From a virus, in the IMG/VR virus record IMGVR_UViG_3300042922_000505, positions 1 to 42,112 of that record: a stretch of 42,112 bases of DNA. One strand, 5' to 3'. The notes beneath the pieces are model-generated. The model ran no database searches, was not told where the DNA came from, and saw only the letters and a list, made by a program, of their open reading frames with translations. This document shows, piece after piece, positions 30,059 to 32,646 of this stretch (its first letter is position 1; every line of letters begins with the position of its first letter). Position numbers and translations under genes: made by a program.

Positions 30059-30072
30059 ATCGCCACCTCCTT

Positions 30073-30161
30073 TGTCTTGATGAATACATCTTACATCTTT
30101 ATTTTGTATGAGTCAATACTTTTTTTGAAAATATTTTTATTTTTTTGTATTGATGAATACA
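30073..30161. promoter_or_regulatory. Three repressor operators (O1, O2, O3)
   Basis: Sites of the palindrome TGTATT-GATG-AATACA: O1 30073-30088 (one mismatch), O2 30105-30120 (left half TGTAT, right half AATAC) and O3 30146-30161 (perfect). Centres are 32 and 41 bp apart, close to three and four helical turns. O1 and O2 flank the early promoter and O3 overlaps the repressor promoter. Confidence 0.8.
30088..30116 (-). promoter_or_regulatory. Early (PR-like) promoter
   Basis: Minus strand TTGACT (30111-30116), 17-base spacer, TAAGAT (30088-30093). O2 covers the -35 and O1 lies at the -10/start. Drives the whole early operon. Confidence 0.75.
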
Positions 30162-30178: not shown

Positions 30179-30191
30179 ATATTTATTGGAG

Positions 30192-30581
30192 GTGAGAACA
30201 ACGGAAACTTACGAGAGAATAAGACAAATAAGACAAGAAAATAACTTAAGTCAAAGCGAATTTGCTGAAAAACTTGGAGTTACAAGATCTGTTATTTCAA
30301 ATATAGAATTGAATAAACTGGCTAAACCAGAGCAAAAGACATCCTTGATAAAATTAATAAGCAGAGAATTTAATATCAATGAAGAATGGGTACTTAATGG
30401 AACAGGTGAAAAAGAATTATTACCTATAGATGACGAAAGACTTACAAAGGCACTTGCAGAAATTTCTCTATCAGGAAATGAAAAGCTTAAAAGTTTAGTT
30501 GAAAGAATGATTGAACTAGATGATAAATACATAGATATAATTTTGAATCTAGTAGATACCGTCCTAGAGGACAAAAAATAA
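30192..30581 (+). CDS. Lysogeny repressor, XRE family (CI-like), start codon unusual
   Basis: About 125-129 residues. N-terminal HTH_3 (ERIRQIRQENNLSQSEFAEKLGVTRSVISNIELNK) and a helical C-terminus with no S24 peptidase domain, so it should not be cleaved by RecA. Starts: GTG 30192 overlaps the GGAGG site; ACG 30201 is spaced ideally (8 bases) and begins (T)ETYERIRQIRQ, the natural N-terminus of this family, so the ancestral start was probably ATG. In-frame ATGs further upstream (30150 region) lie inside the promoter. Divergent from the early operon, followed by a terminator. Confidence 0.85.
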   Translation: MRTTETYERIRQIRQENNLSQSEFAEKLGVTRSVISNIELNKLAKPEQKTSLIKLISREFNINEEWVLNGTGEKELLPIDDERLTKALAEISLSGNEKLKSLVERMIELDDKYIDIILNLVDTVLEDKK

Positions 30582-30585
30582 AAAG

Positions 30586-30618
30586 AGCAGGCACTTATTC
30601 AGTGTCTGCTTTCTTTTT
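30586..30618 (+). terminator. Terminator of the repressor gene
   Basis: Stem of 10 bp (arms 30586-30595 and 30601-30610, one G-U), loop of 5, then TTTCTTTTT. Overlaps the 3' end of the convergent 35-residue gene. Confidence 0.85.
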
Positions 30619-30702
30619 CAATGCTTTTACATAACCATAAATCAAGCTCAATATTTTAGGATTGTTAATACTTTTGACCATTTCAATTATTTCTTCCTTC
30701 AT
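30595..30702 (-). CDS. Small protein convergent with the repressor, 35 residues
   Basis: ATG at 30702 with a GGGGG site nine bases upstream. Product: MKEEIIEMVKSINNPKILSL followed by IYGYVKALKKK. Proteins of the type MKE.IIEM..SI....L..IY...K occur next to XRE repressors in clostridial prophages; function unknown. It has its own promoter carrying a LexA-like box, and its transcript would run into the repressor gene as antisense. Confidence 0.6.
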   Translation of the reverse strand: MKEEIIEMVKSINNPKILSLIYGYVKALKKKADTE

Positions 30703-30748
30703 TATAACATTCCCCCCGATAAATAATATCGCTCTAATCGATAAATTG

Positions 30749-30778
30749 ATTATATCACATGCGAACAGTCATTCGCAA
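30749..30778 (-). promoter_or_regulatory. Promoter with LexA (SOS) box-like palindrome
   Basis: Minus strand TTGCGA (30773-30778), 18-base spacer, TG-A-TATAAT (-10 at 30749-30754). Inside the spacer is CGAAC-AGTC-ATTCG on the plus strand (30762-30775), one base off the Gram-positive LexA consensus CGAAC-N4-GTTCG, within a longer TGCGAA/TTCGCA inverted repeat. A LexA-repressed promoter is inferred. Confidence 0.6.
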
Positions 30779-30968: not shown

Positions 30969-31178
30969 TTGAACGCTTTCAAGATATTATTCAAACTTAA
31001 GAAAAAGCGATTTGAGAAACGCAAAACTCAAAAATATGTTTCTAGAATATCAGGAATATCACAATCTCATATAAGCAAAATAGAAAATGAACAGGAAAGT
31101 CCAACACTAAGAACAGTGGAACAAGTTGCTAATGCCCTAAAGGTGCATCCTCTAGAGTTGCTAGAATTTGAGGACTAG
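30969..31178 (+). CDS. XRE-family small regulator, 69 residues
   Basis: HTH_3 (KRKTQKYVSRISGISQSHISKIENEQESPTLRTVEQVANAL) in a protein of about 69 residues. TTG at 30969 directly abuts an AAGGAG site, so the true start is uncertain. A TATAAT lies just upstream and a 10-bp palindrome (GACAATTGTC, about 30902-30911) further up. Probably a second lysogeny-control protein or an antitoxin-like factor. Confidence 0.75.
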   Translation: MNAFKILFKLKKKRFEKRKTQKYVSRISGISQSHISKIENEQESPTLRTVEQVANALKVHPLELLEFED

Positions 31179-31304: not shown

Positions 31305-31595
31305 TTGTTAGGTGAAAGAATAAAATCACTCAGAAAAGACCAAGGAATTACGCAAGATCAACTTGCAGAAAAAATAAACATATCTCGTCAAAGTGTTTGG
31401 GGATATGAGAATGATGGTGTTGAACCTAGTTTAAATGTTCTAGTTAAGATTGCAGACGTATTTAATGTAAGTTTAGACTATTTACTTGGCAGAACTGAAG
31501 AAAAGCATAATATAAACCTATTAGATGAATATACAAAAGAATTTCTACTTAAAATACATGATCTTGTAAATGATTATAAAATAATAAAGAAGTAG
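31305..31595 (+). CDS. XRE-family regulator, 96 residues
   Basis: TTG start with AAGGAG eight bases upstream. HTH_3 (GERIKSLRKDQGITQDQLAEKINISRQSVWGYENDGVEPS) then a helical tail including the usual LGRTEEK linker. Its own -10 (TGTATAAT near 31264-31271) lies upstream. Third consecutive plus-strand XRE gene; convergent with the integrase. Confidence 0.85.
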   Translation: MLGERIKSLRKDQGITQDQLAEKINISRQSVWGYENDGVEPSLNVLVKIADVFNVSLDYLLGRTEEKHNINLLDEYTKEFLLKIHDLVNDYKIIKK

Positions 31596-31635
31596 TCTAC
31601 ATAACTTAATATGTGAGATTACTTCTTATTTTTTT
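31589..31635. terminator. Bidirectional terminator between XRE and integrase
   Basis: A 14-bp stem with one bulge (arms about 31589-31602 and 31611-31625) followed by TTATTTTTTT on the plus strand; the minus strand also has a T-rich run. Shared by two convergent genes; the integrase stop lies in the T-run. Confidence 0.75.
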
Positions 31636-32572
31636 ACTTTTTAATTTTAATTGATTTCTTACTTATAAACTCTAAAGGATTAAATTCCTCAAAGCCATCC
31701 TGTAGGTCTTTAGTAAACATATTTACATAATTACGAACCATATCCATATCACTGTGATTAAGTGTTTTTTGGAGCTTAAATATATCTCCACCATTAAGAA
31801 TCCATTGCTTAGCAAAAGTATGTCTCCAACGATGTATGCCTGTCTTTTTAACACCTCTAGAGTGATTGTATCTTCTCATACTGCTATCAATACTATCTCT
31901 GTTTAATTGACCGCTATAGGCAGTACAAAAAGCGTAATCTTCCTCATTTCCTTCTCTTATAGATAAATATTCCTTTAGTACAGGCTTAAGTGATGGAGTT
32001 ATTGGAATTGCTAAAGGTCTCCTATTTTTCGTAGTTCCTAAAAATAATAGGCTATTATCTAAATCTACATCTTTGATTTTTAAATTTCTTACATTGGAAC
32101 ACCTCATGCCTGTAGAGTAAAGCAAATTACATATGGTCCAATTTCTAAATTCTACAAAGCTGCAGTTACTTTTATTAGGTTTCTTAAGTAATATTTTAAC
32201 CTCATCTTCCGTATATGTTTCTATTACTGGTTTATCATATTTAATAAGAGCAATATGAAATTTTTCCATATATCCTAGCTTCATGAAGTAATATAATATT
32301 GTTTTGAAGCCTCTAAGGTAAGTATTTATAGTTATATCCTTTATATTTAATTCGTTTTGGCATCCGATAATAAAATTATCTACTGTAGCCTTGGTTATAT
32401 CCTTTATAGGAATCTTAGGCTCAATAAACTTATAAATAGTTCTAACTGTATTATCGTAAAATTGTATAGTAGCAGGTCTGAAGTTCCTGGTCCTGCAATA
32501 GAAAATAAACTCATCATAACCCCTATCAAAAGTTATACTTTTTGTATTAATTTCTATCATTTTTCTTTTCAA
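31634..32572 (-). CDS. int: Tyrosine integrase
   Basis: 312 residues from TTG 32572, which has AAGGTGG eight bases upstream. N-terminal SAM-like core-binding domain (about 20-110), C-terminal catalytic domain with Arg in LYSTGMR (R157), H-x2-R in HRWRH (H247, R250), His in LNHSD (H273) and nucleophile Tyr in VRNYVN (Y282). All catalytic residues are present. Catalyses integration at the adjacent attP candidate. No recognised excisionase is present; a small early protein may serve. Confidence 0.93.
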   Translation of the reverse strand: MKRKMIEINTKSITFDRGYDEFIFYCRTRNFRPATIQFYDNTVRTIYKFIEPKIPIKDITKATVDNFIIGCQNELNIKDITINTYLRGFKTILYYFMKLGYMEKFHIALIKYDKPVIETYTEDEVKILLKKPNKSNCSFVEFRNWTICNLLYSTGMRCSNVRNLKIKDVDLDNSLLFLGTTKNRRPLAIPITPSLKPVLKEYLSIREGNEEDYAFCTAYSGQLNRDSIDSSMRRYNHSRGVKKTGIHRWRHTFAKQWILNGGDIFKLQKTLNHSDMDMVRNYVNMFTKDLQDGFEEFNPLEFISKKSIKIKK

Positions 32573-32595
32573 AATATCGACCACCTTTACATAAA

Positions 32596-32646
32596 AATTG
32601 CACACACGTTTTAAGTATTTCTACAAAATAAACGTGCGTGCAAATT
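32596..32646. repeat. Inverted repeat upstream of int (possible arm or Xis sites)
   Basis: Arms 32596-32611 and 32630-32646 match over about 15 positions with one or two differences (AACGTGYGTGCAA core), separated by 18 bases. Lies between the int start and the attP core. Confidence 0.6.

Follow-up and report, generated by a model that had tools for sequence, protein, structure and literature searches.

The described systems closest to the locus analysed here are the LexA-controlled small antirepressors GfoA, GfhA and GftA of the Gifsy phages, Tum of phage 186 and AntC of N15 (PMC3121763). The likeness lies in a non-cleavable repressor, a small inactivating protein and a LexA-repressed gene, and concerns the functional class only, with inactivation presumably through protein binding and not proteolysis. 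The present locus also combines a repressor lacking a peptidase with a small gene whose promoter contains a putative LexA box; the box of the window scores weakly on the relatives' matrix. In contrast to the Gifsy, 186 and N15 arrangements, the small gene is here convergent, its products are 31 to 48 residues long, the box is of the Gram-positive type, and the small protein looks like the C-terminus of the repressor itself.

Another parallel is provided by SinI, whose gene is a host gene and is not run by LexA. In the SinI/SinR pair of Bacillus subtilis (PDB 1b0n), an XRE repressor made of a helix-turn-helix (HTH) and a C-terminal helical element is paired with a small helical antagonist resembling that element. 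The present locus similarly encodes a small helical protein resembling the C-terminal helices of its partner repressor (profile score 21, see below), but with a convergent gene order. The resemblance does not extend to the SinI family itself: none of the 36 members identified below matches PF08671, which SinI matches at 2.4e-13, and HHalign comparison with SinI detected no profile similarity (E 0.4). Closer to phages, the complex between the phi106 repressor and AimX from arbitrium phages (released 2026) associates, judging from the entry titles, a phage XRE repressor of similar fold with a small antirepressor; the switch for AimX is the AimR/AimP arbitrium signal, not LexA. Lastly, in the TF-smORF prophage modules the cI repressor is inactivated, with no proteolysis involved, by the product of a small ORF that a dedicated phage transcription factor drives independently of SOS (PMC10432266). 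The box found here points instead to SOS, and the window has no adjacent gene for such a dedicated factor: no XRE gene was found on the same strand within 700 nt upstream of the small gene, the nearest one (starting at 30969) being divergent.

The window, that is the whole stretch of DNA analysed, spans the 42,112 bases of an IMG/VR virus record, and the small gene sits within its immunity region. Early genes run leftward below position 30060, followed by the gene of an XRE-family lysogeny repressor (30192..30581, plus strand), the small gene (30595..30702, minus strand), two more XRE genes running rightward (30969–31178 and 31305–31595) and a leftward integrase gene (31634–32605). The integrase assignment rests on sequence and on a match to phage integrase-like loci rather than on domain scanning. 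The divergent early promoter region contains three near-repeats, TTTGTCTTGATGAATACA at 30071–30088, TGTATGAGTCAATAC at 30105–30119 and TTTGTATTGATGAATACA at 30144–30161, whose position within 30071..30161 makes them probable operators of the CI-like repressor. A DNA search with the immunity region gave no match among known phages, and the integrase and ParB-like queries retrieved no close relative of the window phage.

The repressor, of about 126 residues, consists of an HTH domain followed by a C-terminal helical hairpin. Pfam scans gave HTH_19/HTH_3 matches for the window repressor, and across this protein and 37 relatives they found HTH domains and listed no peptidase family, in agreement with the sequence-only reading that the repressor lacks a self-cleaving domain. 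In the AlphaFold2 model (pLDDT 89.5), the HTH helices are followed by the hairpin, formed by helices 94–104 and 108–125. The top fold match in the PDB is SinR from the SinR–SinI complex (1b0n), and the phi106 repressor–AimX complex (9sf2, 9iaq) is also among the top matches. As regards the start of this gene, the METYERIR homology start deduced from relatives corresponds to ACG at 30201, which follows GGAGGTGAG (window 30183–30209), and the nearest standard starts are GTG at 30192 and TTG at 30186; either translation begins at a non-standard codon or the N-terminus of the repressor is longer.

The 35-codon gene described by the sequence-only reading as antisense to, and convergent with, the repressor is indeed present as an ATG ORF (30702..30595, minus strand) facing the repressor ORF, which stops at 30581. 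It is preceded, 9 nt before the ATG, by a Shine-Dalgarno-like GGGGGG (30712..30717, minus strand), and encodes a candidate small antirepressor, MKEEIIEMVKSINNPKILSLIYGYVKALKKKADTE, predicted to fold as a helical hairpin (AlphaFold2 helices 2–11 and 15–34, pLDDT 95.4). It belongs to a profile family of proteins of 31 to 48 residues, convergent with short peptidase-less XRE repressors in prophages of Clostridia. Among 2073 open frames around 128 distinct repressor loci (those with downstream sequence, the repressor relatives being taken from viral contigs and one genome per species), 36 ORFs matched the small-ORF profile (E<0.01); all of them lie opposite the repressor strand, and nearly all end within about 45 nt of the repressor stop. 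To avoid circularity, 397 whole genomes from one Lachnospiraceae-centred family sample were then searched with the small-protein profile alone. Matches were found in 43 of them at 1e-4, and 21 of the 29 genome-wide matches inspected face a repressor of the same type. Since only 9 of 391 genomes matched in a class-wide sample and none of 151 in the Lysinibacillus family, the family appears centred on Lachnospiraceae and near relatives. Its members also occur in cultured phages: in the C. difficile phages JD033, phiCD08011, Hain-Saunders-2022a and pCD5401_3 and in Terrisporobacter TPDSL_ph2, all with box-like sites, as well as in Butyrivibrio Idris and Closwp03; the JD033 member is a 34-residue product annotated as like phiCD38-2 gp38. 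No family of Pfam or NCBIfam and no named PHROG family covers these small proteins. The window protein partially matches phrog_19640, of unknown function (E 9e-4, residues 1–30 of 35), as do 6 of the 36 relatives at E≤0.1. Foldseek with the 35-residue model returned nothing useful, and no match was obtained in Rfam.

Two further observations concern small proteins of related context. A second, unrelated convergent family of about 40 residues, 'M.KKYI.Y....V.AIYY....TLYYNLNF.G.TKII', lies on the opposite strand just downstream of the repressor in eight loci (L015, L018, L029, L040, L082, L101, L113 and L125), where the partner repressors end in '..EELEK.FPPVD..'; no LexA box was seen at these loci, and the family is possibly another type of antirepressor. 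At L166, L183, L186 and L190, the hairpin motif was also seen in operons of mobile elements that have no convergent repressor. It is there arranged in tandem or, in L183 and L190, joined to the C-terminal end of longer proteins, which suggests an interaction module of wider use. Since some profile matches thus lie outside repressor loci, the hairpin alone is no proof of antirepressor function.

Upstream of the small gene, the sequence-only reading had proposed a Gram-positive SOS box, one base off, in the spacer of a minus-strand promoter with an extended -10, and this was confirmed at 30762–30775. The putative LexA box, CGAACAGTCATTCG, has one mismatch to CGAACNNNNGTTCG (CGAACN4GTTCG) and occupies the spacer of TTGCGA-18-TATAAT (30778..30749), with the -35 hexamer at 30773..30778 and the -10 hexamer, preceded by TGn, at 30749..30754, both on the minus strand. 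It is the sole SOS box with at most one mismatch in the whole 42-kb window, as compared with a mean of 0.06 in shuffles; 5 of 100 window shuffles hold at least one. It lies 73 nt ahead of the small-gene start (-73), matching the boxed relatives, and it also fits GAACnnnnnTTC (GAACN5TTC), a motif among those applied to LexA of C. difficile (PMC4234289). Nevertheless, the wording 'one base off' overstates the strength of the putative box: its score on a matrix built from the boxes of the relatives is 9.2 bits, where the median is 20, and several other 14-mers of the window outscore it.

Within the family, CGAACN4GTTCG with at most one mismatch was found upstream of the small gene in 23 of the 69 members having distinct upstream sequence (shuffle mean 0.07, maximum 1), and the GAACN4GTTC core, also with at most one mismatch, in 35 of the 69 (shuffle mean 1.9, maximum 6). 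The box was detected at 5 of 88 loci without the small ORF, and in none of 40 control regions of the family loci. In at least 12 members it lies between TTGACA-like and TATAAT-like hexamers, spaced by 17 bp around the box in L042, L121, L023, L148, L069, L139, L168, L092, L187, L061 and others, and this hexamer–box–hexamer architecture is common to these relatives and the window. At L078, the small protein is closely similar to that of the window and a good box is found at -68. Since no box can be recognised in about half of the family, SOS control does not extend to all members. Boxes are strongly enriched in the family (23/69 versus 0.07 expected); the window's own copy is degenerate.

Two additional features were observed around these promoters. 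A conserved XRE gene of about 65 codons is found on the same strand, roughly 95–280 nt upstream of the small gene, in about 20 of 71 members (L042, L053, L065, L081, L091, L105, L116, L141, L163, L184, L189 and others), with the motif 'MKILL.E.MY..NLT.RQV...TGVSKST...I.N..ISPRLDTLE.LAKGLKI.I.DLYES'. It possibly represents a second input to the small gene. Some of the members bearing it also have a LexA box, and some box-less members have it; the input to the module may therefore vary, and some of these box-less relatives may be of the TF-smORF kind. Good LexA boxes, CGAACAATCGTTCG and CGAACAGCCGTTCT, were also seen about 70–130 nt past the repressor stop in L057, L110 and L112, whose repressors end in '..KVELYRQELEREEKAAE..' and where no member of the small-protein family is present.

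The relationship between the small protein and its repressor was examined at the profile level. The small-protein profile aligns in register with the repressor C-terminus over 37–40 columns, with a score of 21 (E 3e-4), as compared with 7.1 ± 1.6 for column shuffles (maximum 12.5 of 100) and 12.5 for the reversed profile; with all 69 small proteins the E-value is 2.8e-4. The two-helix element is common to the AlphaFold2 models of both partners. Since the HHalign probability is only about 40%, homology is suggested, not proven. Only the profile comparison is significant: ungapped pairwise comparisons between small proteins and their own repressors were mostly non-significant (4 of 40 at p<0.05). 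Over 40 pairs, the divergence of the small protein correlates with that of the repressor C-terminus (r 0.55) and not with that of the HTH (r 0.10); the partial correlation with the C-terminus is 0.55 (permutation p 0.0005), the HTH giving p 0.3. Such co-variation would fit a lock-and-key partnership, and joint travel of the small gene with the 3' end of the repressor gene as a cassette could be partly behind it. A hairpin-type C-terminus was also tried as a marker of the small gene; it was found in 38 of 40 repressors with the gene, but also in 40 of 88 without it, and is not specific as scored.

What the small gene produces, and in response to what, can be weighed from these data. The SOS proposal of the sequence-only reading had left the choice between an antirepressor peptide and an antisense RNA. 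Convergence of the two genes, whose stops overlap by 4 nt in several relatives, would suit a transcript acting as antisense RNA against the repressor mRNA, with an incidental ORF. The small gene was, however, not clearly found to read into the repressor, as had been thought: a strong bidirectional intrinsic terminator (30584..30612), whose hairpin is accompanied by a U-run on either strand (-17.2 and -14.7 kcal/mol, with z -4.8 and -4.0), overlaps the small-gene stop and closes both genes. In 35 of 40 relatives, too, transcription from the small gene's strand meets a terminator at the junction, which makes antisense action on the main part of the repressor mRNA unlikely. At the codon level, pN/pS values of 0.17–0.43 in 18 pairs of relatives, biased downward because the pairs were picked by amino-acid identity, point to purifying selection on the small proteins, and the start is conserved together with a Shine-Dalgarno sequence that is good ahead of most family starts. 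Antisense RNA as the main function was rejected on terminators and codon selection, and we consider an incidental ORF highly improbable. The peptide half of the proposal is the one that comparison supports, with its conserved family, enriched boxes, selection on the protein and co-variation with the repressor C-terminus.

A more serious alternative retains the antirepressor and dispenses with LexA in the window, where the box would be decayed or a chance site, and the input would be supplied by a basal promoter, by some regulator of the phage or by the divergent XRE gene starting at 30969. The weak matrix score, the box-less half of the family and the same-strand small XRE genes of 21 of the 71 members, which recall the TF-smORF modules (PMC10432266), all speak for it. 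On the other hand, it is a family member's promoter that holds the only box of the window with at most one mismatch, at the distance seen in boxed relatives and in a form that fits the clostridial motif; the closely similar protein of L078 has a good box, and the window has no same-strand XRE gene upstream. On balance this alternative is unlikely. The small protein might also be some other SOS-induced phage product, for instance a toxin-like peptide or a protein modulating some host target, or else a co-repressor, lying beside the repressor by chance. The hairpins of mobile-element operons without convergent repressor would agree with this, but most of the inspected genome-wide matches face the repressor type in question, and the small protein co-varies specifically with the repressor C-terminus and is similar to it, which leaves such a role rather improbable.

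From the available sequences, the small protein is thus probably a LexA-controlled antirepressor, which would copy and block the hairpin of the repressor, much as SinI acts on SinR. Its pairing with this hairpin is proposed because of the profile likeness, the co-variation and the SinR and phi106 fold matches. In the lysogen, host LexA bound to the box between the -35 and -10 hexamers would keep the small gene off. Removal of LexA upon DNA damage would allow its transcription as far as the shared terminator, and the helical-hairpin protein would then pair with the C-terminal hairpin of the non-cleavable XRE repressor, presumably its oligomerisation element, in place of a second repressor subunit. 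Self-association of the repressor would be blocked, the operators vacated and the prophage induced. LexA binding in the window phage, contact between the two proteins and the inducing effect are steps that we infer.

As to the origin of such modules, a tentative scenario would be that a large family of SOS antirepressors in prophages of Clostridia, each made of a single hairpin of about 35 residues, arose as detached copies of the repressor C-terminal hairpin. Together with the 3' end of the repressor gene, the small gene could then form an exchangeable lock-and-key cassette, for which LexA boxes would be one interchangeable input among several, small XRE activators being others. The literature searched, which covered few subscription journals, yielded no description of the combination of a Gram-positive LexA box, a hairpin of about 35 residues resembling the repressor C-terminus, convergence with the repressor and wide spread in prophages of Lachnospiraceae. 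SOS-controlled antirepressors and decoy antirepressors are both known; their combination appears to be new and widespread.

Many prophage repressors of gut Clostridia lack a self-cleaving domain, and the way in which these prophages sense DNA damage is mostly unstudied. If the proposed mechanism is true, a conserved and tiny LexA-driven decoy would explain damage sensing for a large group of them, including cultured C. difficile phages. Expression of the 35-residue peptide would then provide a predictable inducer for each prophage, and cross-induction of co-resident prophages would become predictable by matching the small protein to the repressor C-terminus.
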